Part shown: positions 880 through 55,456 of the stretch, piece by piece
Numbering within the stretch: the stretch's first letter is position 1
Layout of the letters: the number at the start of each line of letters is the position of its first letter
DNA from: Eriocheir sinensis
Lineage: Eukaryota; Arthropoda; Malacostraca; Decapoda; Varunidae
NCBI RefSeq assembly: GCF_024679095.1
Contig: NW_026112142.1
Span: 183,501-247,500, forward strand
DNA: 64,000 bases
Direction of reading: 5' to 3'
Made by a program: the position numbers and the translations under genes
Notes under the pieces: model-generated
What the model saw: the letters and a program-made list of their open reading frames with translations, nothing else
Databases searched by the model: none
What the model was told of the DNA's origin: nothing

Positions 880-3800
880 AACCAGCGCAGAAAAGGAGTA
901 AGTTTAATTGGTCGCCAGATGAAACGGTCTTCTTACATCAAATTCAAGAAAAAAGACGTATAATCAGAGGGTGTTATGGGAAGAGTATCACCCCTGAGGA
1001 TAAGAAGAGAGCGTGGACTGAAGTGGCAGAAGCTGTAACAAGGTTAGTAATCACATATTCATGGTTCAATTAGCTTACAAACTAACCTAACCTAATCAAT
1101 TGGGTATTTTTGGCATAATAACACAACCACTGACCTTCCAAACAAAACATACCTTTTTATTCTGTATCTGAATAGTTTCATTATGACCATTTCTGCCACA
1201 GCCCCCTCTCCCTCAACAACCTAACATAACTAAACCTATCCATGCCAAACCTGCCCCGTCCTACCGAACACATCCTAACTTAACATGCCAAGTTTGTTGG
1301 GGGGGAAGAGGGGGTTGGTATAGATAGTTAAGGCATATTTGCCCTGTTTTTATTCTTTATTTATTTTTATTTGTTTATTTTTTTTTTTTTATTGGGGGTG
1401 GGGGTGGGTTGGGGGGGGGGATGCTAGGCATGCCAGACTATGGACACTTTTACAAGTACTTTATGTCAAGACTATATGGGAACAGGTAGGTTTCGTGAGA
1501 ATGGTAAAGTAAGATTAAAATAGTATATTTATATCATTGGTCAAACAGATTATGGTGATATAATGTTAGATTGGAATGTACTCAAGATAATGATATTAGG
1601 GTTAACGCTTTTATTTTTCTTGTTACATATTCACATATCCATGATTCAAGTAACTTGCAAACTAACCTAACCTCGTCAAATGGGTATTTTTGTATACAAA
1701 CACAACCACAGAGTTTCCAAACAGGACATACTTTTTCCTACTGCTCCATGTGAATAGCATCATCATGACCATTTCTGCTGCAACCCCCACTCCCTCAACA
1801 ATCTAACATAACTAAACCAACTCCTGCTAAACCTGTCCTACCTAACACGTCCTAACCTAACATGGTAGGTCCCCAAGTTTGTTAGGGTGGAAAGGGGGTT
1901 AGTATAAGAGAGTCAAGTCATATTTACCTGTTATTTTATTTATTCCTTATTTAGATTTTTTTTGGGGGGTGGGTGGGTTGGGCATGCCAGACTCTCAACA
2001 CTTTTACAAATATTTTATGTTAAGACTATATCGGAATAGATAGATTTGATGAGAATGGTAAAGTAAGATTAAAATATTATTTTGATAGCATTGGTCAAAC
2101 AGTTTCTGGTGATATAATGTTAGGTTAGGAGTACTCAAAAGAATGGAATTAAGGTTAATGCTTTGAATTTTTTTGTATAGCTGTATTGTGTAATATCATC
2201 CTACTTAGAGAAAAGCATTTTAGAAAAGTAGGTAATGAAAAGTAGTATTTATGGCCATGTTCATAACAACTAAAAAGTTAATGTCTTATGATGCATGTAA
2301 ATAAAATACTGGTACTGATTTAGCTTTCCATCACAGGATGTATTAAATGTTATTGGAGAAGGTATGTGAATAAATAGCATGCCATAGTGAAACGATTAAG
2401 AAACTTGATTCACATTTATACCCTGACAGTGCCTTCCCTGGGAGTGGACCCCGTACGCAGGATGACTGTGAGAGGCGTTGGTACAACATACAACAAAAAT
2501 CAAAGCCTCGCATTGCCAAGTGCAAGAATGAGCTGCGGCAGACTGGTAATTTTTTTAGTTGTTATGTCTTTAAATGTAAAACTTATATTAGTTAAGTTTT
2601 TTATGTGCTCACAGAATGCAGCTATACTGGCCACAATGCCTTTATTTCAGCTTAAAGTCAATAAGTTCATAGCAGTGAACTGCATATTTGATATAGAATT
2701 TTTTTTAATGTTCATCTGTCAATGACTATCAATCTATCTAAATACCTTGGTTGTCTTCCCCCAGTGAAGGGTTTTAGCCAAGACAGGCACACACTTACTC
2801 ACACACTCACACTCATGTACACCACTCTCTCAGCTGCACAGCCCCTGAGGGAGTAAAAAAGGCCCTCACTGTATGGGGGATTAGCTGCACAGTTCAGACA
2901 GGGAACTTCCACACCAAGGCCTCACAGCATACACTGGTTTACCCCTGCCCCTTCATAACAATGACATTTCCCCCAGCACCTGAGTGCCCCACACGTGTGG
3001 CACCACAGATACGCAGGCGCCTGCCTATATAACTATGACATTAACTGTGGTAGATAAACTGGTGTATGACATCATAGGCTGCTCGTCTCATGTATTTGAA
3101 GGGGTACCAGAGCCATTCAGCATTGACATGATGTGCTAGGGACAGGACAGCAGCAACAGTCAAGCAGCAGTGAAATATTGACTGGCCTGTATGTTTTTGG
3201 CAAAAACTTTTATATTCTTATTAAAACAATTTATTAATCACCCTTAAATTCATATTCTTTGTAGATACACACTTTATCAGTATTGCTAGAGACCATCCCA
3301 GCACATTGTTCATTACTTGTGGAAAAGATACCATTAGCTGCTCCAGCAACAGCCACTGCTTCAATATCTGCTGGCCCTATGACACCAGCCACTGCTTCAT
3401 CATCTGCTGGCCCAATGACACCTGCCACTGCTTCATCATCTGCTGGCCCAATGACACCTGCCACTGCTTCATCATCTGCTGGCCCTATGACACCAGCCAC
3501 TGCTTCATCATCTGCTGGCCCAATGACACCTGCCACTGCTTCATCATCTGCTGGCCCAATGACACCTGCCACTGCTTCATCATCTGCTGGCCCTATGACA
3601 CCAGCCACTGCTTCATCATCTGCTGGCCCAATGACACCAGCCACTGCTTCATCATCTGCTGGCCCAATGACACCAGCCACTGCTTCATCATCTGCTGGCC
3701 CTATGACACCTGCCACTGCTTCATCATCTGCTGGCCCAATGACACCAGCCACTGCTTCATCATCTGCTGGCCCTATGACACCTGCCACTACTTCATCATC

Positions 3801-4509
3801 TGCTGGCCCTATGACACCTGCCACTGCTTCATCATCTGCTGGCCCTATGACACCAGCCACTGCTTCATCATCTGCTGGCCCAATGACACCTGCCACTGCT
3901 TCATCATCTGCTGGCCCTATGACACCAGCCACTGCTTCATCATCTGCTGGCCCAATGACACCTGCCACTGCTTCATCATCTGCTGGCCCTATGACACCTG
4001 CCACTGCTTCATCATCTGCTGGCCCTATGACACCAGCCACTGCTTCATCATCTGCTGGCCCTATGACACCTGCCACTGTTTCATCATCTGCTGGCCCTAT
4101 GACACCAGCCACTGTTTCATCATCTGCTGGCCCAATGACACCAGCCACTGCTTCAATATCTGCTGGCCCTATGACACCAGCCACTGCTTCATCATCTGCT
4201 GGCCCAATGACACCAGCCACTGCTTCATCATCTGCTGGCCCTATGACACCAGCCACTGTTTCATCATCTGCTGGCCCTATGACACCAGCCACTGTTTCAT
4301 CATCTGCTGGCCCTATGACACCAGCCACTGCTTCATCATCTGCTGGCCCAATGACACCTGCCACTGCTTCATCATCTGCTGGCCCTATGACACCAGCCAC
4401 TGCTTCATCATCTGCTGGCCCAATGACACCTGCCACTGCAAGGGATGACAATGAAGCTGCTCCACCAGTCACCACCTACTTCATCGGAGTTAAGAGATGC
4501 CTTTCATAG
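880..4509 (+). CDS. Myb/SANT-like (zeste-type) DNA-binding protein with 12-residue repeat tail, spliced
   Basis: Not named; recognised by domain. Exon 1 (about 880-1042) encodes FNWSPDETVFLHQ then GKSITPEDKKRAWTEVAEAV, and ends AG|GTTAGT. Exon 2 (2388-2545) starts after CATAG, continues in matching phase with ETIKKLDSHLYPDS, then ERRWYNIQQKSKPRIAKCK and ELRQTG, and ends at a GTAATT donor. Together these give the tryptophan-spaced helices of the zeste/MSANTD-type Myb/SANT-like domain, which binds DNA. Exon 3 (from about 3281, after ACTTTATCAG) keeps phase and enters about 30 copies of SSSAGPMTPATA, ending NEAAPPVTT...KRCLS at TAG 4507-4509. The first exon lacks an in-frame ATG after an upstream stop, so an earlier exon is missing from this model. 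Intron 1 holds a 0.55-kb duplication. The gene could be host-derived or the accessory gene of a Harbinger element, given the HARBI1 relic downstream. Confidence 0.55.
1045..2165 (+). repeat. Tandem duplication (~0.55 kb x2) in intron 1
   Basis: Two diverged copies, starting near 1045 and 1620. Both run through TTGCAAACTAACCTAACC-like sequence, a G-rich GGGGGTGGG stretch and TAAGATTAAAATA to GGTGATATAATGTTAG. The copies sit wholly between the proposed exons 1 and 2. Confidence 0.75.
2546..3280 (+). other. Proposed intron 2 of the Myb/SANT-like gene
   Basis: No domain-bearing frame is present. It begins with the GTAATT donor and has two possible acceptors, TTCTTTGTAG at 3264 and ACTTTATCAG at 3280. 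Only the second preserves the reading frame of the repeat tail. Confidence 0.4.
3342..4440 (+). repeat. 36-bp coding minisatellite, about 30 units
   Basis: Tandem 36-bp units read SSSAGPMTPATA on + and an AGVIGPADDEAV-type unit on -. The two most variable sites (CCA/CCT before ATG and CCA/CCT before GCC) are third-codon, synonymous changes in both of those frames. In the remaining open + frame (CFIICWPNDTCH-type) they would be N/Y and C/S changes. Rarer variants are A/V, S/I and A/T. Confidence 0.9.
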
Positions 4510-14682: not shown

Positions 14683-17044
14683 ATCTGTAAAGATTCCAGT
14701 TCCCTTATAATGTCATAACCCCATATTTCGCAAGCGTAAGTCGCAACTGTCACCACCATACTACTGTACATTTATAATTGTATATCAAATGGCAAATCAT
14801 ATTTTCGAGAAGTCCCAATCAGTGGATACATGGCCTTAGTTGCGTGGTCTTTAAGTTCTAGTTGCCCTTTCCTAAACCGTCCATTATAGCTGAACAATAT
14901 ACCCAGGTGTTTATATTCTCTTACTACCTCTATTTCCTTCTCACCAACCTTGAAATTGTACTTACTGGTTACAACTCTACCCCTACTGAGAATTACTATT
15001 TCAGTTTTACTACAATTTACCTTTAATTTCCACTCTAAACAATACCTGTGAAGTGATACTAAAGCTACCTTCATGTTTTGCTCGCTATCACACAAAATAA
15101 CAGTATCATCTGCGTACATAATCACCAATAATCTGAGATACGTGTTTACAAGGTCATTGAAATTAAGATAGCTACAATTATACTCTATAAGTTTTCCCTG
15201 CAGGTCATTAACATAGAAAGCGAATAACAATGGTGATAGGTTTCCACCTTGCCTCACTCCCATATTGCAAGTAAATGTTTCAGACAACTGTTGGCCAACC
15301 ATTGCACATGACTTGACATTAAAATACATACTACGAATAACATTTAGTATCTTACCATTAACACTATATTTACAAGTTTAAACCATAGACCTTCCCTCCA
15401 TACCATATCAAAAGCCTTTTTATAGTCAATAAATAAACAAAATAATTTCATCATTTTCCACTGAAACAAGTCAACAACGCACTTGAGTAAAAAGATATGA
15501 TCCAGTGTGGAATATTCCTCACGAAAGCCTGCTTGTGTTTCATTGATGATGTTTTGATCGTCGGAATACTGTTTGAGACTGTCGTTAAGAATGGACGTAA
15601 ACAATTTCCCCATACAGCTTAAAAGGGTAATACTTCGGTAGTTATTTGCATCATTAACGTCTCCCTTGTTTTTATAAAGAGGTATTATAACGCCAGTGAG
15701 CCACTCCGATGGAAAGACACCTGTGTCAAGGATCTTATTGAATAGTTCGACATATAAAGGGCAGAGTAAGTCTTGTGTACATTTTATATATTCATTAATG
15801 ATGTTGTCACTACCAGGAGACTTGCCGTTTTTCAGTTTACCAATACAACAATTTATTTCAGCATGTGTTATAGGGTTGTTAAGTGCGGGCGAGTCAGCGT
15901 CACTGTTAGTTTCCTAATCAATTATCTCGTTTGCATTACTATCGTCGTCCTCTGTGTAGAGCATTTTAAAGTGGTCATAAAATTTCTCGAGTGGTGTGTG
16001 ATTATTTTTCTCTACTTTGCTCTTTTTTATAATCTTCCAGTATGCCTTTGCGTCTTTAGTTTTGTTTGCTCTTAATTGCTGAAGTATATTACTATTACCT
16101 TTATTCCTTACCCTCTTTAGTTCTCTTTTATAATTTCTACCTTTTTAATCATAGCTGTATACGTAACAGTATTCTTTTGTCTGTTATATTTATTCTTAGC
16201 CTTGTGATACTCTTTCCTGCTGTTGTAGCATTGTTTGTCATACCCTCCCATATTTACATTATTGCTCTTCTTTATATATTTTTTACTAAACTGTGGAAAA
16301 ACTTTCAATGCAGGGTCAATGAAGACACGCTTTAACTGATCATTTACATCATCAACTGATAATTTGGCAAAATTCATTATAAGTTCATTCACCTTACTCT
16401 TATCAATATTTTTCTCATACTCAATTTTCCGTTCATTTCTCCATCTGCCTGGCCTCAAACAAACTGCTTCACTCGTTTTATTGCCAGTCTCGCGCGCTTT
16501 GCTTCCCACACCTAAAAATTCCAAACAAATATGCAAACCACGATGAACATCTGAATATAATGGTTCAAAGTCTAACAGCCGAAAACTCTTAACAAATCGG
16601 ACAACATTCCAAGTACCAATAACATAGTCTATGACTGTATTGTAAGTGGTAGTAAACTTACCAATACCACGGTCTTCACCCATTCTCCCATTAAAGATAA
16701 TTATTGCATTGTTATTCTTACAAATTTCTATCATTTTTTTACCATAAGAATTTCTATCAGGGGTGTTGTCTTGATTACATCTGTTCTCTGAAAAGCCTGC
16801 CTTTCTTAAAATATCACAAATATCTTCTATTGGAGAAATATATTCATTAGTATCATTCACTAATTCATTACCGTCACTCACTGAGGCAATGTCAGAGAAA
16901 GTGGCGGTATGAGCATTGAAATCACCACTAACAATATGATATCCATCATTGTTTGACAAGAAAAGATTATCCAACTGTTGTAACCCGTAATCCGGGTCAC
17001 ACAGGGGAGACGACACACTGTTTGTACTAGTGACACTTGACTTA

Positions 17045-17935
17045 AAATTCTGGTACTTTAGGAGTATTTAAAGGAGTTCGTAAATGGGGTGATGAAACGG
17101 TGTCGCCTTTCTTATATGTATTTTATTCTACCTTAATACTACTTAATATTACAAAGGGTAAAAATATTGTTTAAACCAGCGACTGGCTTACTAGACTCAA
17201 TGAGTCTTCAGGTTTTCTTTCACTATTGGTTACTGACGTTAACACTGGTATAATATTGAGTAAAAACTCACACAATAAAGTATCATAGAAATATAATCCT
17301 AAGTAAAACTAAGATAATAGAACACAATAGATATGTTAGATACGCTTTCCTCTATGGTACCACATTACTCCATACTCACAGTAGCAAAGATGAATGTTCT
17401 ACCCATGTTGTCTAGGGAAGGACAACTGAGTGTCCAGCAACGAACAGAGTGCTGGTTGATCTGATCCCTAGCCTGAATAAATGCTTCTTATATAGGCATG
17501 ACATACATACAGACATCACGAGGGTAATACGTCAGGCGTGTGAGTCATACATCAAACTCACACCAAGCTCATACAATAATCTACCTAACCGACATGTGTA
17601 ATAAGGTCGATTTTAATCCTTAGTGTAGCTGTCACGCGGTGACGCAGCTTTGTTTTCATAACATTTTGTTCCGCGGTTGATCGTGTTTTGGCCGCGGTTG
17701 ATTGTGTTTTGGCCGCGGTTGATTGTGTTTTGGCTTAGAGAGATAAGCGGGTGCGTTAATGGGCAATTGCAATTGTGTATAGGTTGGTAAATGAACAGTG
17801 TGTGTGGGGACAATCATGTCTTGGAGTCCGTGTGGATACCGCTGTTGTCATCGGAAAATATTGCCGGAGAAGATGATGACACTGGAGCGAGTGGTGTCGC
17901 AGCCCTCGGGGCACCACACAACTCATCGAAATTTT
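17045..17935 (-). mobile_element. LTR-like insertion in LINE B endonuclease (possible solo LTR)
   Basis: The endonuclease frame breaks after RYGKPENF and resumes with KSSVTSTNSVSSPLCD, leaving about 0.88 kb of foreign sequence. On the minus strand this contains a TATA box (CCTATATAAG, near 17490) and, about 365 bases later, AATAAA (near 17124), the order expected of an LTR promoter and poly-A signal. No coding domain is seen. Both borders carry AATTTT/AAAATT-like words, but no clean target duplication could be fixed. Confidence 0.45.
17670..17733. repeat. 21-bp tandem repeat x3
   Basis: CCGCGGTTGATTGTGTTTTG-type units repeated three times with one C/T difference, inside the LTR-like insertion. 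Confidence 0.9.
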
Positions 17936-28344: not shown

Positions 28345-28966
28345 ATCCCCCCCATACAATACAATATAGCAAAAAATTCCACATGCTATTAAAAAAGGAA
28401 ATCAAAGAGGTTTACTTATAATGAACTGTACTTATTTCCTGAAGTAATGTATTAAAAAAAAAATATATTATGGCCTGTATTTAAAACAAAAGCACATTGA
28501 ATTTATACTGTAAAAGCAGTCTTTGAAAAATAATGATACACTTCTTTGAAAGAAGTTCATAAAAAGTCTTTGAAATCAAAATTCAAAATCTATAAAAAAA
28601 TAAGGTTTTTAATTCTTATGACAATAAATTTGGTTATTTTCAGTCTTGCTACTATTTATTGTAACTCACAGTTTACACTGTTTGCATATAGCTCTCCATG
28701 CTTTCCCAGACTTTGAAGGAATTCTGTTAAAATGTTCTCACCTACCGAACGGGCACAAGCCACTCCCGGTGAGGTATATATGGGAGGTGAGCAGGGAGCT
28801 GAAGCCCTCCAAAGACCCTTCCCATGTCCTCACTAACCGTTTCCCTATTGTCTCACCAACACCGGAGAGTAGTTCAGCATGCTCTCTAAAGACAGATCCT
28901 CTCTTTATCCACACCACACTACATTCTCACAACATATACACCTTTTCCCAAAATTAAAATTTCAAA
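28345..28966. other. AT-rich spacer, then open stretch before LINE A
   Basis: 28345-28640 is AT-rich with no feature. 28646-28957 is open on + but has no recognisable domain. It could be upstream sequence of the LINE that starts at about 28967. Confidence 0.35.
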
Positions 28967-31888
28967 ATGGCGCACATACACCAAGCCTCGGAGTCCCCGC
29001 CTGGGGGGGGGACCACAAATTCCCCCAGGGAGGACTCCCCTTCTGGCTGCCGACCCGAGAGGTGTCTTGATAACTCCTCGAACCTCTTTCTTCTCAATTT
29101 CTGCAACATTCGGGGTCTTCGCTCTAATTTTCATTCTGTGGAACATCATCTCTCCTCTAAACCTCACCTTCTCTTCCTTACCGAAACACAGGTTTCTGAG
29201 GCTACTGACAGCAATCTCTACTCTGTTCCCTCCTACTATCTCTATCCTAAATTTCAATCCAAAGCTGGATGTTGCGCCTACGTGCGCAACGACATCACTT
29301 GCTCTCGTGCCCACGACCTTGACTCTTCTGAATTTTCCACCATCTGGTTAAGACTTCACTGTCATTCTATTACTAAATACATCTGTGCTGTTTATCTCTC
29401 ACCTAACTCTACCAACTATGTAAAATTCTTTGACTATTTGAATTCTAAAGTGGAGCACATCTTGACCCACTCTCCCTTCGCTGAAATCTCCATCCTAGGA
29501 GATTTCAATGTTCACCACCAGCTTTGGCTTTCATCCTCTTTCACTGACCATCCTGGTGAACAAGCCTACAACTTTGCTATCCTCAACGACCTAAAGCAGT
29601 TGGTCCAGCACCCTACACGTATTCCTGACCGTCTTGGAGATCGGCCCAACATTCTAGACCTCTTCCCTACCTCAAACCCTTCTGCTTATTCTGTCAAACT
29701 GTTCTCCGTTGGGCTCCTCCGATCACAATCTTATTTCTGCATCCTGTCCTATCGCTCCTGTACACCCTCTGGACCCACCGAAGAGGCGATGCTTCTGGCA
29801 TTTTGCTTCAGCTCGGTGGGACGACCTGAGGATGTACTTTTCCGATTTCCGTGGAATGATTATTGCTTCCAGGATAGAGACCCTCTGTGTGTGCTCAGCG
29901 CATCACAGAGGTGATTGTCTCTGGAATGGAGGCATACATTCCTCGTTCTTTCTCTACTCACGCTAAAAAGCCTTGGTTTAATCACGCTTGTTCTCGTGCT
30001 GTCAATGATAGAGAGGTAGCTCACAAAAGATACCAGAGCCTTCAAACTAATGCTAATTATGAACTTTACATTTCTGCCCGAAATCGTGCCAAATCTATTC
30101 TCCGACTAACCAAAAATTCTTTCATTAATAGAAAATGTCAAAACCTTGCTTTCTAACTCTTCCCGTGACTTCTGGCATCTAGCCAAAACATCTCCTCCAA
30201 CTTCACTTCTTCATCTTTCCCTCCACTCCTCAGTCCTGACGGCAACACTGCCGTCTCATCTATCTCTAAGGCTGAACTCTTCTCTCAAACTTTTTCTAAA
30301 ACTCCACTCTGGACGATTCTGGGCATATTCCTCCTACTCATCCCCCTCTGACTCCTTTATGCCTGTTATAAAGATTCTTCAAAATGATGTTTTCTATGCC
30401 CTCTGGCCTCAATCCTCAGAAGGCTTATGGACCTGATGGAGTGCCCCTATTGTCCTTAAAACTGTGCCTCCGTGCTGTCACCCTGCCTGGTCAAACTCTT
30501 TCGCCTCTGCCTGTCAACATCTACCTTTCCTTCTTGCTGGAAGTATGCCTTCATACAGCCTGTACCTAAGAAGGGTGACCGCTCCAATCCCTCAAACTAC
30601 CGTCCGATTGCTGTACTTTCTTGTCTATCTAAAGCTTTTGAATCAATCCTTAACCGGAAGATTCAAAAGCACCTTTCCACTTCTGACCTTCTATCTGATC
30701 GCCAGTATGGGGTCCGCATTCTACTGGTGATCTCCTAGCCTTCTTAACTGACTCTTGGTTATCCTCTCTTAGCCGTTTCGGTGAAACTGTTATTGCGCTG
30801 GACATATCAAAAGCTTTTGATAGGGTCTGGCACAAATCTTTGCTTTCTAAACTACCCTCCTACGGTTTCTATCCTTCTCTCTGTACCTTTATCTCCAGTT
30901 TCCTTTCTGACCGTTCTATTTCTGCCGTGGTAGACGGTCACTGTTCTTCCCCTAAATCTATTAACAGTGGTGTCCCACAGGGTTCTGTCCTATCTCCCAC
31001 TCTTTTTCTGTTGTTCATTGATGATCTTCTTTCCAAAACGAACTGTCCTATCCATTCCTACGCCGATGATTCCACTCTGCATTATTCAACTTCTTTTAAT
31101 AGAAGACCCACCCTTCAGGAACTTAACGACTCAAGGCTGGAGGCTGCAGAACGCTTACCCTCAGACCTTACTATTATTTCCGATTGGGGCAAGAAGAACC
31201 TGGTGTCCTTCAACGCCTCAAAAACACAGTTTCTCCACCTATCCACTCGACACAATCTTCCAAACAACTATCCCCTATTCTTTGACAACACCCAGCTATC
31301 ACCTTCCTCAACACTAAACATCCTCGGTCTATCCTTAACTCAAAATCTCAACTGGAAACTTCATATCTCATCTCTTACTAAATCAGCTTCCTCGAGGCTG
31401 GGCGTTCTGTACCGTCTCCGCCAGTTCTTCTCCCCTGCACAGTTGCTGTCCATATACAGGGGCCTTGTCCGCCCTCGTATGGAGTATGCATCTCATGTGT
31501 GCACACAGCTCTTCTGGACAGAGTGGAGGCAAAGGCTCTTCGTCTCATCAGCTCTCCTCCTCATACTGATAGTCTTCTACCTCTTAAATTCCGCCGCAAT
31601 GTTGCCTCTCTTTCTATCTTCTATCGATATTTCCACGCTGACTGCTCTTCTGAACTTGCTAACTGCATGCCTCCCCCCCTCCCGCGGCCCCGCTGCACTC
31701 GACTTTCTACTCATGCTCATCCCTATACCGTCCAAACCCCTTATGCAAGAGTTAACCAGCATCTTCACTCTTTCATCCCTCACGCTGGTAAACTCTGGAA
31801 CAATCTTCCTTTATCTGTATTTCCTCCTGCCTACAACTTGAACTCTTTCAAGAGGAGGGTATCAGGACACCTCTCCTCCCGAAACTGA
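28967..31888 (+). pseudogene. Endonuclease-reverse transcriptase polyprotein of family A
   Basis: The ATG at 28967 opens [12 protein letters not shown]. The APE-type endonuclease follows: [49 protein letters not shown] and, after a frame change near 29700, [13 protein letters not shown]. After a linker come NPQKAYGPDGVPLLSL, NYRPIAVLSCLSKAFE, IALDISKAFDRVWHKSLL, NSGVPQGSVLSPTLFLLF and SYADDSTLHYS (catalytic YADD). The C-terminus is HSFIPHAGKLWNNLPLSVF and ends HLSSRN. Frame changes near 29700, 29890, 30160, 30370, 30720 and 31495 mean no intact protein. Annotators usually call this protein jockey-like; I do not assign a clade. Confidence 0.88.
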
Positions 31889-37690: not shown

Positions 37691-37781
37691 GGAGGAGGAG
37701 TGAAGAGACGACGTTGACGAGCTGTGGAAAATGAATTTAAAGGGAACGGCGAGTTTGTGTGATGAGACATGAGTTTACGAT

Positions 37782-37782
<1 letters not shown>

Positions 37783-37828
<46 letters not shown>
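37783..37828. repeat. (GA)n microsatellite
   Basis: About 46 bases, just upstream of the 5' truncation of LINE C. Confidence 0.95.
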
Positions 37829-37830
<2 letters not shown>

Positions 37831-37857
37831 GGTGGGTGTTACTTCTGTGTATGTGTG

Positions 37858-40464
37858 TGTGGACACTCAATGCTCCCAACGCACACCTGTACACCTACCC
37901 ACACATCCCTGATCCTATAAGGAATGCCAACGATAACGCGAGGACTCTCGCCACTCTATGCTCAGACGAGAAACTCATTGTTATCAATAATCTCAAGACA
38001 CCCACGCAATACTTCCCGAGTAAATTGACTTTCAAGAAAACAACAGAGTGGAAATATGAGTTGGACGTATGTGTTGCTTCAACCTGTGTGGTTCAGTGTT
38101 TGAGTGAGTTTTGTGTGTGGCAAGACATGTCTTTACCGTCTGACCACGCTCCTATATCTGTGTCTGTGTCTCCCCCGAGTGTCAACGTTACGGACCTGTG
38201 TGTCCGCGCGCAGCACCTGGGTGACCACGCTACAATATACACTACATCAAATAATGCCTTGGTTAACCGACCTACGAAATTTTGTGATTTAAATGTTGAA
38301 GAATTTCATACCGTGCTCACCCAGCGTGATGTGCCTGTGTTGAGTGCTGATGGCCATGTTGACAGATATGCCGATGAAATCGCGAACACGCTATACGAAT
38401 GCAGTAAAACAAGTTATAATGATAATCATGGTAATGTTGTGGATGCAATGACAAACAGATGGGACAGACTGCTCCGTGATAATGACGATAAGCATGTATG
38501 GCAGGCTATTGACTGGAGAGGAGAATACAGAGAGACCAATGATAACAACAGGTGTCCAGATGATGAAGAGTTTAAATTATTTTTTGAAGAGTTGTTAAAC
38601 CCCCCTGATGTGACTGATCTTGATGTTGATGCTTTCACCACTCCTGTGACAATTCCTATTTTAGACAGTGAAATATCAGTGGTTGAGGTGGAACACAGCA
38701 TAAATAAACTCAAAGTAGACAAGGCGAGCGGCCCGGATGGTTTGTGTCCAGGGATTTTTAAAGTGTTACCGATGCAGTGGCTTTTATCAATCACTACTTT
38801 ATTCAACACTATTTTTATCTCAGGCAGTTACCCGTCATCGTGGCGTCTGGCAAGACTATTTACAATTCTCAAGCGTGGTGACCCACTACTCCCGAGTAAT
38901 TATCGCGGCATTAATGTGATGAACATAATTGCAAAAATATATGACATGGTGCTGTGTAACCGATTGATGCAGTGGTTTTCCCCGTATAGAGAGCAGGCTG
39001 GCAGCCAGCCCAAGCGAGGATGCATTGAACACATTGTGACGTTAAGAATATTGCTTGACATTGCTAGAAGAAAGAAATTTCCGTTATTTGTGACATTTGT
39101 AGATTTCTCACAGGCGTACGACCGTGTCCCGCGTGCTACACTGATGGGCGTGTTACGGCGTCTGGGGTGTGGTGCGGTAATGCTGGCTGCTCTGGTCGCC
39201 ATGTACCGCGTCACCCACAGCGTCCTTGGCGCGGCTGTCCTCACTGCCACCTTGGGTGTGCGTCAGGGCTCCCCCACCTCTTGCATTTTGTTTGTTTTGT
39301 TTATTAATGATTTGGTCAAGCTATTAAAAGAGAATTGCGGGCGGGACGGGTTTCTGTTGTGGCTGCACACGTTGGTGCTGATGGATGACACTGTCTTGCT
39401 CTCCACGTCAAGGGAAACCATGCACCATAAGCTTTCCATACTCTGTCAGTATTGCAGTGATTATGGTATGAAAGTAAATGTTAAGAAAACAAAGTTTTTT
39501 GCTGTTAACGTGAATTATGATGAGCGCGGGACGTTACGTGTGGGCGACGTGTCAGTAGAATGGTGTGACCGCTATACGTACTTGGGTAGTGTATTCACCA
39601 GCGACGGGTCCGTCTCATCAGCTATTGCTGCCCACGCACAGACGCGAATGTGCCATATTTTAAAGTTCGCCTCATTTATAAAGAAGAACAACGATACCCC
39701 GTTTTTATGTAAAGAGACGAGTGTTTGATGCCGCGCTGATGTCGACCGTACTCTATGGGTGTGAGTCGTGGTTGAATGGTGATCTTAAGCCAGTTGTAAA
39801 ACTGTATAACTGGGGTATCAAGCAACTATTGGGTGTGCGTATGACAACCTGCAATGACCTATGTTATTTAGAACTAGGACTGCCGCCCCTACGAGCCCTT
39901 GTTATTGGTAGACAACGTAAATTTTTCCGGTGCATGTGGAGGGAGCGGCGAGAAATAAATGACGACCCATGGTCACACGCAGTAAGACTCGCGATGGAAG
40001 CCAATGTACCAACAGGCAGGTTTATTTCTGATCTTATTTCTCAAGAAATAGATGATGTTGGTGAGGCGATTAGTGCCCTAAAAGAATCTGTTGCAGCATC
40101 TAATTCTTCTAGAAGAACGACATATGTGTCCCTAAATCCTGATTTTACTGTCCACAACTTATATTTGACACGAAAGTTTTTTAATGATTTACATAGAACA
40201 TCGTTTACAAAGTTACGTGTGTGCGGGCATGATTTAGCTGTAGAGACTGGTCGGTGGAATAGGCGAGGCAGGGGGCGCCTTCCCCTGGAAGAGCGGCTTT
40301 GCCCGTGTGGGGAGGTGCAGACTGAACTACACGTGGTGGAGTCTTGCGCCCTCACACAGCCATTGCGAGAACACCACCACTTTGCAACATGGCAGGAGCT
40401 TATGACAAAAGATGCACATGTCGCAGCAAGAATTGTTCATTTCTTACTTACTACATATCATTGA
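37858..40464 (+). pseudogene. Endonuclease (partial)-reverse transcriptase of LINE C
   Basis: It opens inside the APE endonuclease, with LPSDHAPISVSVS near its end. RT follows: INKLKVDKASGPDGLCPGIF, NYRGINVMNIIAKIYD, GCIEHIVTLRILLDI, FVTFVDFSQAYDRVPRATLM (catalytic Asp), LGVRQGSPTSCILFVLFIND and LVLMDDTVLLSTSRE, where the usual aromatic residue before XDD is leucine. Downstream are YGMKVNVKKTKFFAV and YTYLGSVFTSDGSV. A frame change near 39710, explained by one extra T in a T run, then gives RRVFDAALMSTVLYGCESWL. The C-terminus includes LCPCGEVQTELHVVESC (Cys/His cluster), ending LLTTYH at 40464. Apart from that indel the 2.6-kb frame is unbroken, so this is a young copy. Confidence 0.9.
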
Positions 40465-41984: not shown

Positions 41985-43925
41985 TCCACTGCACACTTAA
42001 TGCTTCACTCTGCACACTTATATGCTCCACTCTGCACACCTATAGTAGATGCTTTCACTTGACAATACTTCACCCTGCACACTTAGATGCTCCACTTTGC
42101 ACACTTAATACTTCACTGCACACTTTGATGCTCCACTCTGCACACTTAATACTTCACTGCACACTTTGATGCTCCACTCTGCACAATTAATACTTCACTG
42201 CACACTTTGATGCTCCACTCTGCACACTTAATACTTCACTCTGCACACTTTGATGCTCCACTCTGCACACTTAATACTTCACTCTGCACACTTTCATGCT
42301 CCACTTTGCACACTTAATACTTCACTGCACACTTAATGCTCCACTCTGCACACTTACATGCTCCACTCTGCACACCTATAGTAGATGCTTTCACTTGACA
42401 ATACTTCACCATGCACACTTAGATGCTCCACTTTGCACACTTAATACTTCACTGCACACTTTGATGCTCCACTCTGCACACTCAATACTTCACTCTGCAC
42501 ACTTAGATGCTCCACTCTGCACACTTAATACTTCACTCTGCACACTTAATATTTCACTCTCCACACTTAATACTTCACTGCACACTTTGATGCTCCACTC
42601 TGCACACTCAATACTTCACTCTGCACACTTTGATGCTCCACTCTGCACACTTAATACTTCACTCTGCACACTTAATATTTCACTCTCCACACTTAATACT
42701 TCACTCTGCACACTTTGATGCTCCACTCTCCACACTTAATACTTCACTGCACACTTAGATGCTCCACTCTGCACACTTAATACTTCACTCAGCACACTTT
42801 GATGCTCCACTCTGCACACTTAATACTTCACTCTGCACACTTAATATTCCTCTCCACACTTAATACTTCACTCTGCACACTTTGATGCTCCACTCTGCAC
42901 ACTTAATACTTCACTGCACACTTAGATGCTCCACTCTGCACACTTAATACTTCACTGCACACTTAGATGCTCCACTCTCCACACTTAATACTTCACTGCA
43001 CACTTAGATGCTCCACTCTGCACACTTAATACTTCACTCTGCACACTTAGATGCTCCACTCTGCACACTTAATACTTCACTCTGCACACTTAGATGCTCC
43101 ACTCTGCACACTTAATACTTCACTGCACACTTAGATGCTCCACTCTCCACACTTAATACTTCACTGCACACTTAGATGCTCCACTCTGCACACTTAATAC
43201 TTCACTCTGCACAAGATGCTCCACTCTGCACACTTAATACTTCACTCTGCACACTTAGATGCTCCACTCTGCACACTTAATACTTCACTCTGCACACTTA
43301 GATGCTCCACTCTGCACACTTAATACTTCACTGCACACTTAGATGCTCCACTCTGCACACTTAATACTTCACTCTGCACAAGATGCTCCACTCTGCACAC
43401 TTAATACTTCACTCTGCACACTTAGATGCTCCACTCTGCACACTTAATACTTCACTCTGCACAAGATGCTCCACTCTGCACACTTAATACTTCACTGCAC
43501 ACTTAGATGCTCCACTCTGCACACTAAATACTTCACTCTGCACACTTTGATGCTCCACTCTGCACACTTAATACTTCACTGCACACTTTGATGCTCCACT
43601 CTGCACACTTAATACTTCACTCTGCACACTTAGATGCTCCACTCTGCACACTTAATACTTCACTCTGCACACTTAGATGTTCCATTCTGCACACTTAATA
43701 CTTCACTCTGCACACTTTCATGCTCCACTCTGCACACTAAATACTTCACTCTGCACACTTTCATGCTCCACTCTGCACACTAAATACTTCACTCTGCACA
43801 CTTTGATGCTCCACTCTGCACACTTAATACTTCACTCTGCACACTTAGATGCTCCACTCTGCACACTTAATACTTCACTCTGCACACTTAGATGTTCCAT
43901 TCTGCACACTTAATACTTCACGCTG
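41985..43925 (+). repeat. 43-bp dimeric satellite (~1.95 kb)
   Basis: Alternating half-units of about 21 and 22 bases, CACTCTGCACACTTAATACTT and the TTAGATGCTC type, recur about 45 times as dimers. The variants TTTGATGCTC and a shortened CACTGCACACTT are spread through the array. Open frames here are repeat artefacts. Confidence 0.92.
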
Positions 43926-44102
43926 CATCGAGCTTTGTTTCTCCGTACACTTTGCCGAGTCTCTTGTTTTGCTTTTCTATTTTCTTTCCCTTCGTTTTCT
44001 TCACTGTAGCCTAGTGTGGTCTTTTAGCATTTCCCTTTTCTGTCCTTTTGTTTGTTTCCTACTGTTACACTTGCTATGTTCATTTATCTTTTCCTGCTGT
44101 GT
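43926..44102. other. Short unique spacer
   Basis: T-rich sequence between the satellite and the MULE target duplication; no feature. Confidence 0.5.
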
Positions 44103-44118
44103 TCTTTTTTCGGTATCC

Positions 44119-46572
44119 GGTCATTTCGCCCACATGACCAGTTCGCCCACATCAAAAAGTCGTTTCGCCCAAAGTCAGTTCGCCCACACTGAGGAGTCAG
44201 TTCGCCCACACTGAGGAGTCAGTTCGCCCACACCGAGGAGTCAGTTCGCCCACACTGAGGAGTCAGTTCGCCTACACCGAGGAGTCAGTTCGCCCACACC
44301 GAGGAGTCAGTTCGCCCACACCGAGGAGTCAGTTCGCCCACACTGAGGAGTCAGTTCGCACTACACCGAGGAGTCAGTTCGCACTACACCGAGGAGTCAG
44401 TTCGCCCACACCGAGGAGTCAGTTCGCCCACACTGAGGAGTCAGTTCGCCGACACCGAGGAGTCAGTTCGCCCACACCGAGGAGTCAGTTCGCCCACACC
44501 GAGGAGTCAGTTCGCCCACACGGAGGAGTCAGTTCGCCCACACCGAGGAGTCAGTTCGCCCACACTGAGGAGTCAGTTCGCCCACACCGAGGAGTCAGTT
44601 CGCCCACACCGAGGAGTCAGTTCGCCCACACTGAGGAGTCAGTTCGCCCACACTGAGGAGTCAGTTCGCCCACACTGAGGAGTCAGTTCGCCCACACTGA
44701 GGAGTCAGTTCGCCCACACTGAGGAGTCAGTTCGCACTACACCGAGGAGTCAGTTCGCCCACACTGAGGAGTCAGTTCGCCCACACCGAGGAGTCAGTTC
44801 GCCCACACTGAGGAGTCAGTTCGCCCACACCGAGGAGTCAGTTCGCCCACACTGAGGAGTCAGTTCGCCCACACCGAGGAGTCAGTTCGCCCACACCGAG
44901 GAGTCAGTTCGCCCACACTGAGGAGTCAGTTCGCCCACACTGAGGAGTCAGTTCGCCCACACTGAGGAGTCAGTTCGCCTACACCGAGGAGTCAGTTCGC
45001 CCACACTGAGGAGTCAGTTCGCCCACACTGAGGAGTCAGTTCGCCCACACTGAGGAGTCAGTTCGCCCACACCGAGGAGTCAGTTCGCCCACACTGAGGA
45101 GTCAGTTCGCCCACACTGAGGAGTCAGTTCGCCCACACTGAGGAGTCAGTTCGCCCACACTGAGGAGTCAGTTCGCCCACACCGAGGAGTCAGTTCGCCC
45201 ACACTGAGGAGTCAGTTCGCCCACACTGAGGAGTCAGTTCGCCCACACTGAGGAGTCAGTTCGCCTACACCGAGGAGTCAGTTCGCCCACACTGAGGAGT
45301 CAGTTCGCCCACACCGAGGAGTCAGTTCGCCCACACTGAGGAGTCAGTTCGCCTACACCGAGGAGTCAGTTCGCCCACACTGAGGAGTCAGTTCGCCCAC
45401 ACTGAGGAGTCAGTTCGCCCACACTGAGGAGTCAGTTCGCCCACACTGAGGAGTCAGTTCGCCTACACCGAGGAGTCAGTTCGCCCACACTGAGGAGTCA
45501 GTTCGCCTACACCGAGGAGTCAGTTCGCCCACACTGAGGAGTCAGTTCGCCTACACCGAGGAGTCAGTTCGCCTACACCGAGGAGTCAGTTCGCCTACAC
45601 CGAGGAGTCAGTTCGCCTACACCGAGGAGTCAGTTCGCCCACACTGAGGAGTCAGTTCGCCTACACCGAGGAGTCAGTTCGCCCACACTGAGGAGTCAGT
45701 TCGCCCACACTGAGGAGTCAGTTCGCCCACACTGAGGAGTCAGTTCGCCCACACTGAGGAGTCAGTTCGCCCACACCGAGGAGTCAGTTCGCCCACACTG
45801 AGGAGTCAGTTCGCCCACACTGAGGAGTCAGTTCGCCTACACTGAGGTCAGTTCGCCCACACTGAGGAGTCAGTTCTGCCCACACTGAGGAGTCAGTTCG
45901 CCCACACCGAGGAGTCAGTTCGCCCACACTGAGGAGTCAGTCTGCCCACACCGAGGAGTCAGTCTGCCCACACTGAGGAGTCAGTTCGCCCACACTGAGG
46001 AGTCAGTCTGCCCACACCGAGGAGTCAGTTCGCCCACACTGAGGAGTCAGTCTGCCCACACTGAGGAGTCAGTTCGCCCACACTGAGGTCAGTTCGCCCA
46101 AACTGAGGAGTCAGTTCGCCCACACTGAGGAGTCAGTTCGCCCACACTGAGGAGTCAGTTCGCCCACACTGAGGAGTCAGTCTGCCCACACTGAGGAGTC
46201 AGTCTGCCCACACTGAGTCTGCCCGAGGAGTCAGTCTGCCCACACTGAGTCAGTTCGCACACTGAGGAGTCAGTTCGCCCACACCGGAGTCAGTGCCCAC
46301 ACTGAGGAGTCAGTTCGCCCACACTGAGGAGCCTGCCCACACTGAGGAGTCAGTCTGCCCACACTGAGGAGTCAGTTCGATTACACTGAGGAGTCAGTTC
46401 GCCCACACCGAGGAGTCAGTTCGCCCACACTGAGGAGTCAGTTCGCCCACACTGAGACGTCAGTTCGCCAACACTGAGGTGTCAGTTCGTCCACACTGAG
46501 GTCAGTTCGCCACACTGAGGAGTCAGTTCGCCCACACTGAGGAGTCAGTTCGCCCACACTGAGAGAGTCAGT

Positions 46573-46575
<3 letters not shown>
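44119..46575 (+). repeat. Left terminal array of 22-bp units (~110 copies)
   Basis: Units are CAGTTCGCCCACACTGAGG plus AGT, with CTGAGG/CCGAGG the main variant. The outermost units are different (TCATTTCGCCCACATG, GTCGTTTCGCCCAAAGT). Toward the inner end many units read CAGTCTGCCCACA or are shortened. A (GA)n tract (46577-46615) closes the array. Confidence 0.97.
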
Positions 46576-46619
<44 letters not shown>

Positions 46620-47403
46620 GATTGAATGAGTGCTTCTTATAGTTAAATGGTTAACCAGTTAAATAGTTTAATCTAATTATAAAAATGAACCGTGAAAGTA
46701 GGTCTCGTCATTACAGAAAGCCATCGTATGCACTCAGTTCCTGACATGATGGCAGTCTGTCCAGAACTCTGTATTTCATGTGGTTTTCCTGTACGGCCAA
46801 GACAGGAAGGGCTACAGTGCGAGTTCTGCTGCAGGTGGCAACACAGAAAATGTGATACCGGTGCATCAAGAGGAGATTATTGGGCAGCCGTGAGGTCTGA
46901 CAATACAATTGACTGGACTTGTACTTTGTGCACTAAGGAAGAAGCTACATCTCAAGACATTTCAACTGAAATAGAATCTTCATTTGGTGTACATCTGCAA
47001 GACAATTTGAGTGAGGAACAAGGTATTTCTTCACTGGAACTTGAAACATCACTTGATGACCCACCCCTGCAAAGTGAGGCACAAGTTAACCCTCCTGTGT
47101 TGCCCTCGTTTCAGCTATTTGAGGGTGGCACCAAAAGAGGTGAAAACAAGCTTATTGATGATCTTGGATACACTTATAACATTAAACTAGGAAGGCCAAA
47201 TGTAACATATTGGCAATGTACCGTCCGGCCCAAGGACAATCCCTGCAAAGCAACGGTCACACAAAGAAATAAGACCTTTGTGAAAAGAAATACACACAAT
47301 CATCCTCCGTCTGCCGATTCATCTTCAACAACAAACATCACATCTCAGGTGAAGAAAATGGCAGTACAAGATATCTTCAAACCAGCATCTGCCATAGTTG
47401 ATG

Positions 47404-47405
<2 letters not shown>

Positions 47406-47463
<58 letters not shown>
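47406..47463 (+). repeat. (GT)n at the intron 1 donor
   Basis: The proposed splice donor GAG|GTGTGT is the first GT of about 29. Confidence 0.9.
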
Positions 47464-47466
<3 letters not shown>

Positions 47467-47473
47467 TCTGTAT

Positions 47474-47691
47474 CAGTGGCTGCTCGTACTTAAAATTAGT
47501 GGAGGTGCTGCTCCCAGAAATTTCCCTCCACCAGCGCGCCAAGGTCGGCACTGCGTGACTGCGCCACTGAGGGAACGGCAGCCGCAGCCAGCCTCCTGTG
47601 TGCACAACTAAAATAAGGGATGGCTACTGACATTACGTTAGTTAGTAGTGGGTGCTGCATTTCCACAGAGCCTATGCACGGGCAGCCACTG
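47474..47691. mobile_element. hAT-like MITE in intron 1 of the MULE transposase
   Basis: The ends are CAGTGGCTGCTCGTAC and, inverted, CAGTGGCTGCCCGTGC. Flanks are GTCTGTAT on the left and, two bases out on the right, CTCTGTAT, a 7 of 8 match to an 8-bp duplication. 218 bp, no coding capacity. Confidence 0.75.
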
Positions 47692-48413
47692 GACTCTGTA
47701 TGTCAGTCTGTGTGTCTATGTTTGTTTGAGGGTGATCGAGAGGAGTTAAGAATAAGTAGGAAAATGTTGAACATGCCAAAATTTTATACTATTAGGAATT
47801 GCGATTAATGCCAACATTTCATTCCATTCAGGTTCTCTTGCAAGAACTACGAAATAAACCTTGCCCGAGTCTTCCAAAGCCCGAAAACTTGGCTAGGACA
47901 GCGAACAGGCAGAGGGAAAAATTAAGACCTGCTGAACCCAAGGACCTAGCATTCGAACTTGACGAGAACCATATCCCAAGCAAATTCTTGAGAGCGGATG
48001 TGAGGATCCGTGGACGGCGCCACTTGATGTTTGCAACAGATCAGCAAATGGAACTTCTAAGCAAAGCCAAATCATGGTATATTGATGGGACATTCAAGCT
48101 CTGTAGACACCCCTTTTCTCAATTACTTACAGTAAATGCATTCGTAAGAACAGATCAATGTGCGAAACAAGTTCCCCTGTTGTTTGTTTTAATGTCAGGA
48201 AGAAAAAAAAGCGATTATCGTGAAGTTTGTAATGCACTTTTAAACTGTCTTCAAGAGGAAATTTCAGTCAAGCATATAACTATTCAATTGACTTCGAAAA
48301 AGCACTTTGGAAAGTGCTGCCTGAGGTGCTACCGTTTGTAACTATCAAGGGATGCGTCTTCCACTGGACACAAGCTATATGGAGAAAGGTGAGTAAACTT
48401 GTGGATTGTTCCA

Positions 48414-48423
<10 letters not shown>

Positions 48424-48487
<64 letters not shown>
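48424..48487. repeat. (GA)n in intron 2 of the MULE transposase
   Basis: GA run between the GTGAGT donor and the next coding block. Confidence 0.96.
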
Positions 48488-48490
<3 letters not shown>

Positions 48491-49264
48491 CAGCCAAATG
48501 TCAAGTGGCGTTGTTTTAAGTATTTCTTCTGTATTTTCTCCACAAGATACAACTTACAAGAGGTTGGGCTTCAAGTGACGTATACTCACGATGAAGCAAC
48601 GTACAAGTTCTTACGAAAGCTGATGGCTCTTCCATTTCTGCCGGAGACCGAAATTCCTGCGATGTTTCAACGACTTTCATCCAAAGCAACGGGTACTCAA
48701 GTACGCCAAGCATTAAACTACATTGAAAGAACCTGGATCGACGGCTCTCTGTGGCCACCTTCCACTTGGAGTGTATTCCAGAAATCTGTGCGTACCAATA
48801 ATGACATTGAAGGGTGGCATAATAGGCTAAATAAACGTGCAGCAGGTAGAAGTACATAGTTTACAGTTTTATGTATTGGTAAACCTACTGCATAAAGAAG
48901 CGCTATTAACATCTATACATAAAAGATTGGTGTCCGAAAGAAAGCTCAGCAGGATTCAACGAAAACATTATAAGGACCTTCAGAAAAAATTATTCACTCT
49001 TTGGGACGAATACGTGATGGGCGAAAGATCAGCGTTTAAGCTTCTGAAGTCATGCTCTTATTTGAATGGGCCAAAAGCGTAATGTTTCCTACCTTACTAT
49101 GAGTACTAAATATATTTTATTTTACTTTTAGAATACATGTTTTTTATACATGATTTGTTTTTAGATGATGTCATTTCTACATAAATTTTATATGAATGTC
49201 TACTCGCAGCATTTATTTTACTTTTAGAATTCAGATACCTTTAAATATAAGATGGTATTTTGTA

Positions 49265-49721
49265 TGAACTGACTCCTGAGTGCGGGCGAACTGACCCCTG
49301 ATTGTGGGCGAACTGACTCCTGATTGTGGGCGAACTAACTCCTGAGTGTGGGCGAACTGACTCCTGAGTGTGGGCGAACTGACTCCTGAGTGTGGGCGAA
49401 CTGACTCCTGAGTGTGGGCGAACTGACTCCTGAGTGTGGGCGAACTGACTCCTGAGTGTGGGCGAACTGACTCCTGAGTGTGGGCGAACTGACTCCTGAG
49501 TGTGGGCGAACTGACTTCTGAGTGTGGGCGAACTGACTCCTAAGTGTGGGCGAACTGACTCCTGAGTGTGGGCGAACTGACTCCTGAGTGTGGGCGAACT
49601 GACTCCTCGGTGTGGGCGAACTGACTCAACTTGTGGGCGAAATGACTCAACTTGTGGGCGAAATGACTAAACTTGTGGGCGAACTGACTTGTGGGCGAAC
49701 TGACATGTGGGCGAAATGACC
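49265..49721 (-). repeat. Right terminal array of 22-bp units (~20 copies)
   Basis: Reverse complement of the left unit: CTGACTCCTGAGTGTGGGCG. It differs from the left array at one position (CCTGAG here, CCTCAG expected). Outer units change to ACTTGTGGGCGAAATGACT and end ATGTGGGCGAAATGACC. Confidence 0.96.
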
Positions 49722-49737
49722 GTAAACCTCTTTTTTC

Positions 49738-54271: not shown

Positions 54272-55456
54272 TTGGTTGGCAGCGGTCACCCCGCGCCTGT
54301 GCCTTCGCTACCTCGTTCTCCTCCAAGCCACGAGAACTCACCAACAAAACTCCGGGGACAGGCGTACAAGGGAAGAAGGAGTCAACGCACCTGCCGTCCG
54401 CGGCAACGCACCAGCCGTCCGCGGCAACGCACCTGCCGTCCGCGGCAACGCACCAGCCGTCCGCGGCATCTCACAAGTCGCCACCTACGTGCAACTCACA
54501 AGGCGCCAGCTACAAACATCTCACAAGTCGCCACCTACGTGCAACGCACAAGGCGCCAGCTACAAGCATCTCACAAGTCGCCACCTACGTGCAACTCACA
54601 AGGCGCCAGCTACAAGCATCTCACAAGTCGCCACCTACGTGCAACCCACAAGGCGCCAGCTACAAGCATCTCACAAGTCGCCACCTACGTGCAACTCACA
54701 AGGCGCCAGCTACAAGCATCTCACAAGTCGCCACCTACGTGCAACTCACAAGGCGCCAGCTACAAGCATCTCACAAGTCGCCACCTACGTGCAACTCACA
54801 AGGCGCCAGCTACAAGCATCTCACAAGTCGCCACCTACGTGCAACTCACAAGGCGCCAGCTACAAGCATCTCCCAAGTCGCCACCTACGTGCAACTCACA
54901 AGGCGCCAGCTACAAGCATCTCCCAAGACGCCACCTACGTGCACCACACAAGGCGCCAGCTACAAGCATCTCCCACGACGCCACCACCGTGCAACTCACA
55001 AGGCCAGCTACAAGCATCTCCCAAGTCGCCACCTACGTGCAACTCACATGGCGCCAGCTACAAGCATCTCACAAGTCGCCACCTACGTGCAACTCACAAG
55101 GCGCCAGCTACAAGCATCTCACAAGTCGCCACCTACGTGCAACTCACAAGGCGCCATCTACAAGCCTCGAGCACACCAGCTATAAGCAACTCTACAGGCG
55201 TCCAGCCTACAAGCCTCGAGCACACCAGCTACAAGCCTACAGGCTCTACAGCCTACAAGCCTCGAGCACACCAGCTTCAAGCAACTCTACAGGCGTCAAG
55301 CCTACAAGCCCCGAGCACACCCACAGGCCTACGCAGCCGATAGCGAGGCCACAATCTACGCCCCCCTTTCAAGCCAGCACTGCTACGTACCCTGCAAGCC
55401 ACTCCACGATACGGCAGAGGTATTCACACCTGCAACGAGGAGGCACGCCCCGCTGA
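54272..55456 (+). CDS. Unrecognised open frame made of tandem repeats
   Basis: A 394-residue frame inside the LTR-like insertion. Its first part covers a 21-bp repeat (x4, 54390-54470). The rest covers a 50-bp repeat, whose length is not a multiple of three, so the translation cycles through VATYVQLTRRQLQ, SHKSPPTCNSQGASYK and HLTSRHLRATHKAP. Other + frames of the same array are also open. No known domain; expression is doubtful. Confidence 0.25.
   Translation: MVGSGHPAPVPSLPRSPPSHENSPTKLRGQAYKGRRSQRTCRPRQRTSRPRQRTCRPRQRTSRPRHLTSRHLRATHKAPATNISQVATYVQRTRRQLQASHKSPPTCNSQGASYKHLTSRHLRATHKAPATSISQVATYVQLTRRQLQASHKSPPTCNSQGASYKHLTSRHLRATHKAPATSISQVATYVQLTRRQLQASPKSPPTCNSQGASYKHLPRRHLRAPHKAPATSISHDATTVQLTRPATSISQVATYVQLTWRQLQASHKSPPTCNSQGASYKHLTSRHLRATHKAPSTSLEHTSYKQLYRRPAYKPRAHQLQAYRLYSLQASSTPASSNSTGVKPTSPEHTHRPTQPIARPQSTPPFQASTATYPASHSTIRQRYSHLQRGGTPR
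54390..54470 (+). repeat. 21-bp tandem repeat x4
   Basis: CAACGCACCTGCCGTCCGCGG-type units, alternating CCTGCC and CCAGCC. Confidence 0.93.
54470..55165 (+). repeat. 50-bp minisatellite, ~14 units
   Basis: Each unit contains CAAGTCGCCACCTACGTGCA and AAGGCGCCAGCTACAAGCAT. Late units carry CCCAAG for CACAAG and one is shortened. Confidence 0.96.
55166..55330 (+). repeat. ~50-bp CTCGAGCACACCAGCT repeat x4
   Basis: CCTCGAGCACACCAGCT, ACTCTACAGGCGTC and CAGCCTACAAG recur. It is related in words (CTACAAGC) to the preceding array. Confidence 0.8.

Follow-up and report, generated by a model that had tools for sequence, protein, structure and literature searches.

In the window analysed here, a stretch of 64,000 nucleotides from the genome of Eriocheir sinensis (contig NW_026112142.1), an element of 5,617 bp occupies positions 44112–49728 of the forward strand and carries a transposase gene between two inverted arms of tandem repeats. 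Comparison with its relatives suggests that it is very probably a broken copy of a dispersed foldback-type MULE, a cut-and-paste DNA transposon. The element is flanked by an exact 9-bp target duplication, TCTTTTTTC, at 44103–44111 and 49729–49737, and the 9-mer has no other copy on the window's forward strand; the reverse complement is found once, at 948. TCTTTTTTC is the sole 9-mer common to both 400-bp flanks, and the probability of a nine-of-nine match by chance, given the flank composition, is 3.8e-6. The tips that follow differ between the two ends, reading GGTATCC on the left (44112–44118, + strand) and, inwards, GGTTTAC on the right (49722–49728, − strand); inside them lies an inverted end motif of 18 bp, GGTCATTTCGCCCACATG, exact at both ends (44119–44136, +, where it contains the first array core; 49704–49721, −). 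Eight matches to this motif with up to three mismatches occur in the window, all within the element, against 0.03 expected. A preliminary description of this DNA, made from its letters alone, had proposed an exact 9-bp duplication, which these data bear out, and inverted sequences as the ends of the element, which are indeed present but stand seven bases inside the true ends.

The state of the locus before insertion can be seen elsewhere in the window's own 1.77-Gb assembly, the genome searched throughout. Joining the two flanks across a single TCTTTTTTC (34 bases, up to three mismatches) gave 22 + 23 matches, as expected if the duplication arose on insertion, whereas the reversed control gave 0 + 0; 11 of the matches have no mismatch, and 44 of the 45 listed keep all nine target letters. 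In all eight empty sites that were retrieved, each an exact match, homology spans the junction for 0.77–2.9 kb at 82–92% identity, and the element therefore sits within one copy of a dispersed repeat whose other copies represent the pre-insertion state. Sequence comparison thus shows an insertion into one repeat copy with a 9-bp duplication, while relatives of the element carry duplications of either 8 or 9 bp, so that the fixed length of 9 bp first proposed holds for the window and not for the family. A tandem array of 46 copies of a 43-bp unit (41989–43927) ends about 175 bp to the left of the insertion, inside the dispersed repeat hit.

The ends recur widely. With up to two mismatches, the 18-bp end was found at 484 places (250 + 234), against 7 (1 + 6) for the reversed control. 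Loci (L numbers) were sampled among the end matches listed, on opposite strands and within 10 kb of one another, and were picked blind to duplications; comparison of their flanks merges those that share one insertion (the window with L024, L016 with L030), reducing 18 loci, including the window, to 16 insertions. Exact duplications of 8–9 bp flank nine of these 16 (six of 8 bp, three of 9 bp) and duplications with one mismatch flank another six, while pairing left and right flanks of different loci, the L016–L030 pairs included, yielded no exact and one near match in 272. At all 18 loci the two ends carry different tips: GGTATCC with GGTTTAC at 11, GGTATCC with GAATTAC at two, pairs one or two bases in total off GGTATCC/GGTTTAC at four, and TGACACG with GAATTAC at L027. 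The GGTATC-type tip lies upstream of the gene in 14 of the 15 loci that could be assigned a strand from pieces of transposase, some of them by short matches, L027 being the exception.

A second sample comprised all 26 listed exact ends not already used. Six of these loci proved to repeat insertions already in the first sample, and among the others three pairs share an insertion; this leaves 17 new insertions (16 if L055 and L059 are counted as one) and a total of 33 (or 32). For 10 of the 26 the partner end was found through the duplication itself, and these were kept out of the evidence for it. Eleven full-length copies of the main subfamily represent six insertions (window/L024/L062/L064/L067; L029/L057; L017; L021; L063; L066), and the interiors of the window copy, L024, L017, L021 and L029 are 98–99% identical, which suggests a recent spread. 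In IMG/VR, five contigs hold the 16-bp end with one core each; they showed no array, and no protein relative was found there by the patterns used.

Comparison of these copies shows that the element carries a three-exon gene, predicted to encode a PHD–FLYWCH–MULE (DDE) protein. Exon 1 (46746–47405, +) covers a PHD-like C4HC3 finger and a FLYWCH finger, exon 2 (47832–48388, +) the first two catalytic D residues of the MULE domain, and exon 3 (48547–49082, +) the catalytic E and the C-terminus, with the stop at 49080–49082. Intron 1 (47406–47831, +; 426 bp, GT..AG) has a GT-repeat at its donor, and intron 2 (48389–48546, +; 158 bp, GTGAGT..CACAAG) contains an AG repeat. In the window the frame is broken in exon 2 by a 5-bp insertion near 48284 and in exon 3 by two insertions, of 7 bp near 48548 and of 4 bp near 48853. 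All three are private to the window and missing from four other aligned copies, including the same element insertion on another contig, and we therefore reject the frameshift as a functional feature. L066 retains an unbroken frame of 578 amino acids and L029 one of 572 with an in-frame deletion. Both introns keep GT–AG borders in 11 of 11 full-length main-subfamily copies, and the sister subfamily (subfamily 2; L016 and L030) lacks intron 1 precisely at the exon junction and has intron 2 at the same position with diverged sequence, so that splicing of both introns is supported by comparison of copies. The spliced transposase of the preliminary description thus stands for the family, although the window's own frame is broken. 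The presence of intron 1 in the main subfamily and its clean absence in subfamily 2 also imply that an intron was gained or lost within the transposon; as a dispersed repeat, intron 1 was found, among the loci compared for it, only in L024, L017, L021, L029 and the window.

The FLYWCH finger (PF04500) lies N-terminal of the MULE domain and matches at 1e-5 to 1e-7, above the Pfam cut-off; in the window it scores 1e-7, and 4.4e-7 on the joined reading. The MULE domain (PF10551) improves from 1.9e-4 in pieces to 1.3e-10 on the joined reading of the window, and reaches 1.4e-10 in the unbroken L066 (42 bits against a cut-off of 27.6). Its catalytic residues, assigned by known motifs as D305, D372 and E490, are spaced D-66-D-117-E, of which 66 falls inside the published range of 60–76 and 117 just below that of 120–135. 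The first finger matches solved Pygopus PHD structures at 2.5e-5 (0.0034 for L030), and all eight C4HC3 ligand positions are kept in L066 and L030 and seven of eight in L014. Together with the constraint described below, these matches make a PHD identity likely, though not certain. Of the three motifs first reported for the gene, FLYWCH and MULE are therefore recognised by Pfam, while the PHD-like finger matches Pygopus but remains below the Pfam cut-off. A structure of exon 1 predicted from the single sequence had a mean predicted local distance difference test score (pLDDT) of 35 and was not used.

Selection on the protein is visible between the subfamilies. L024 shares 63–64% amino-acid identity with L016 and L030, with saturated synonymous differences (pS 0.75–0.76) and a nonsynonymous divergence (dN) of 0.27–0.28. 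The PHD-like region (dN 0.31–0.37, synonymous divergence (dS) 1.75–1.88) and the FLYWCH finger (dN 0.27) are constrained, and the intervening linker is poorly conserved, at 36% identity. In subfamily 2 this linker holds an in-frame coding minisatellite of 51 bp, or 17 amino acids per unit, with about 14 copies in L030 (element positions 511–1237) and a similar array in L016.

Taken by itself, the window copy, with its broken frame and huge arrays, would fit an unrelated minisatellite that encloses a transposase gene by chance, or a transposase-derived host gene. We consider either vanishingly improbable, since the combination of ends, arms, gene and duplications is found at many places and empty sites are present as well. 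The family, the duplications and the empty sites rule out chance or a plain minisatellite, and a domesticated host gene is ruled out because the gene is dispersed together with its ends and is broken in nine of the 11 sampled full-length copies. Classification as a foldback-type MULE, as first proposed, is close to certain: other copies share the ends, the duplications and the transposase; a DDE MULE domain is combined with 8–9 bp duplications, inside the 8–10 bp that characterise the superfamily; and long inverted arms of tandem units define the foldback type. The predicted protein also has a FLYWCH finger N-terminal of the MULE domain, a feature of Phantom, grouped with Muta and Tm1, as described in PMC3169594.

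The inverted ends turned out to be no separate feature from the 22-bp arrays: in both, a 15-bp core, GTCA[G/T]TTCGCCCACA, is repeated with a spacer. The 5′ arm (44120–46580, +; 2.47 kb) holds 112 cores with mostly 7-base CTGAGGA or CCGAGGA spacers, and the 3′ arm (49251–49720, −; 0.47 kb) holds 22 cores by the same count, with inner CTCAGGA spacers; tandem-repeat detection returns 22-bp arrays of 109.5 copies (44173–46577, +) and, inverted, 17.5 copies (49266–49648, −). The first core begins 8 bases from each tip of the window element and the second another 16 bases inward. Across the 36 arms of the 18 loci, the first spacer is a single base in 34; later spacers near the tips measure 0, 1, 6 or 7 bases, and in the interior the length is constant at 7. 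At these loci CTGAGGA is confined to 5′ arms (116 counts) and CTCAGGA to 3′ arms (123 counts), and CCGAGGA occurs 57 times in the former and 8 times in the latter; the two arms are therefore not visibly homogenising each other. A small hairpin per unit was dropped as a conserved feature, since inspection by eye showed it just in the unit of the left arm.

The long inverted arrays of the preliminary description are real in the window but are not the plan of the family. Arms of more than 25 units occur in three of the 33 sampled insertions, where single arms have grown to 77–112 units: the insertion shared by the window and L024, L015, whose 3′ arm has 93 units and whose 5′ arm has 7, and L059, of the other subfamily (77 units with a 38-bp higher-order pattern). 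The remaining counted arms have 1–22 units, and giant arms are thus expansions within single insertions. L031–L033 (ends 15.6 kb apart; second C4 end), with 4, 4 and 6+5 cores, were excluded from the arm counts. L055 and L059, which carry 9 and 77 units on an arm of the same type, have flanks that agree at 85% as far as the insertion point, and the two are perhaps one old insertion inside a duplicated segment.

Several states of one insertion could be compared directly. L024, on contig 45, has the same duplication as the window and is collinear with it over about 33.5–53.9 kb, in blocks of 93–99.6% identity beyond which the order breaks; its arms have 76 units (5′) and 28 (3′), against 112 and 22 in the window. 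L062, L064 and L067 share the window's 3′ junction (TCTTTTTTCCCGC...) and have 3′ arms of 13, 22 and 13 units, while the 5′ tip is gone and the left flank, ...CTGCTGTGTTC, abuts the innermost 5′ arm, so that a deletion has removed the tip, nearly the whole 5′ arm and all but the first three bases of the left duplication. L029 and L057, with common flanks and duplication, differ in the 5′ arm (9 and 18 units) but not in the 3′ arm (10 in each). Arm length therefore changes after insertion, in either direction.

We suggest that the FLYWCH finger would bind the core, so that each arm would represent a stack of transposase sites starting 8 bases inside the tip, and that the DDE domain would cut at the 7-bp tips and join the ends to a target with an 8–9 bp stagger. 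The duplications, together with the empty sites and the DDE domain, imply cut-and-paste movement with such a stagger. By recognising histone tails the PHD-like finger may bias the landing site, although this chromatin-reading role is a suggestion only. Arm length could change by slippage, unequal exchange or deletion, in each case within one arm, because the spacers of the two arms remain distinct and unmixed. That the core is a transposase site is probable from its conservation, from the near-fixed first spacing and by analogy with the P-type foldback element Galileo. A neutral alternative, in which the core has no function beyond the outermost unit and arms grow and shrink as minisatellites whose length does not affect movement, is a genuine possibility that we nevertheless judge rather improbable. 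Such neutrality would account for exact duplications around copies with only 2–5 units per arm (L022, L023, L026), for giant arms in just three of 33 insertions and for the deletion of a giant 5′ arm at three loci. It would not predict the single-base first spacer of 34 of 36 arms, nor cores that are kept better than spacers among four groups (0.855 against 0.469), even if the groups were hand-picked and the anchor columns inflate the core value, which is 0.761 without them; in addition, the tandem repeats in the long arms of Galileo hold extra transposase sites, according to the available text of PMC3688188.

Besides this inflated core value, several points weigh against our interpretation of the window element as a broken copy of a mobile foldback-type MULE. 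Transposition and splicing are read from sequence comparison, binding and expression are putative, and the empty sites are paralogous rather than allelic. One of the 16 insertions, L027, has no duplication, and nine of the 11 full-length copies are broken. Pfam places the PHD-like finger below its cut-off, with E values of 0.27–0.72 in the main subfamily; a fragment from subfamily 2 reaches 0.0032.

Elsewhere in the window, minisatellites of a 36-bp unit (30 copies, 3350–4439) and a 50-bp unit (14 copies, 54466–55165) lie inside long open frames. Three further long frames, at 14775–17067 (−), 28958–31838 (+) and 37773–40461 (+), resemble in their letters proteins of retrotransposons without long terminal repeats.

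The family offers a natural series, with arms of 1–112 units and one insertion that can be seen with long arms, with different arms, with an arm lost and at sites never filled. Such a series makes it possible to ask why foldback arms grow, whether they aid transposition or act as a seed for satellite DNA, and the unbroken gene in one sampled copy makes activity directly testable. The PHD-like finger ahead of a FLYWCH–MULE protein suggests chromatin-guided insertion and may link Rehavkus to Phantom.

FB-NOF elements of Drosophila combine tandem-repeat foldback arms with a MULE-type protein and 9-bp duplications, and the preliminary description took them as the precedent, with the intron-containing transposase as the novelty. 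That view needs correction, because Muta1 and Muta5 of Aedes aegypti (PMC5225508) and Tm1 of Meloidogyne (PMC3169594) are already described as having intron-containing FLYWCH–MULE genes between tandem-repeat termini. Among the systems compared, by description and from the available portions of the cited papers, the published precedents that come nearest are Muta1 of the mosquito and Tm1 of the nematode rather than FB-NOF. Muta1 and Muta5, placed in the Phantom family, with Muta1 termed a type 2 foldback element (PMC5225508, PMC6446971), likewise have 8- or 9-bp duplications, a FLYWCH and DDE transposase with introns (two and three exons) and subterminal arms of nine copies of a 12- or 15-bp repeat; they differ in their shorter units, in lacking arms of tens of units and in that no PHD is mentioned in the portions available. 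Tm1 shares 9-bp duplications, FLYWCH and MULE domains, introns (seven exons), tandem arms (1–9 units of about 14 bp) and different 7-bp motifs at its two tips, and differs in a unit sequence unrelated by eye, a 496-amino-acid protein with no PHD mentioned in the available text, and short arms (PMC3169594). A survey of arthropod MULEs in 4,268 genomes reports four decapod species with MULEs of 2,364–7,555 bp, proteins of 437–1136 amino acids and terminal repeats of 22–777 bp, while its main text, as available, mentions neither PHD, FLYWCH nor tandem units (PMC13359780).

Rehavkus has a PHD finger, a minisatellite near one end (the 3′), 9-bp duplications and a MULE-like DDE domain, and Rehavkus-1_TC of Tribolium has satellite monomers in its inverted termini (PMC6446971, PMC10218199), so that the PHD-like finger, minisatellite arms and 8–9 bp duplications seen here could place the element there rather than with Phantom/Muta. 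We regard this as unlikely: the element has arrays in both arms, as far as a comparison by description goes, and the available text of PMC6446971 lists the PHD finger for Rehavkus only and FLYWCH, not listed for Rehavkus, for Phantom and some others, so that FLYWCH with a significant Pfam MULE domain is Phantom-like. A bolder conjecture, which we hold to be doubtful, is that this lineage joins a Rehavkus-type PHD to a Phantom-type FLYWCH–MULE protein and thereby connects both groups, that its site-stack arms run away singly into satellite-length arrays, and that the PHD reads chromatin for landing. Foldback arms seeding satellites are described for Tetris of Drosophila virilis, which resembles our element in its foldback arms of tandem units, found also in satellite-like arrays, and in its 8–10 bp duplications, and differs in its 220-bp units and in that no transposase was found (PMC4079207, as available).

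Our literature search, which left Repbase, supplements and most subscription papers outside it, turned up no paper recognisable as a description of PHD, FLYWCH and MULE in one protein, and the end letters matched only three papers, unrelated by title, among the paper texts searched. The basic plan of a FLYWCH–MULE gene inside tandem-repeat arms is already known from other animals, and what the Eriocheir family apparently adds to it is a conserved PHD-like finger in a FLYWCH–MULE protein, arm-specific spacers around a conserved core, and the repeated runaway growth of single arms.

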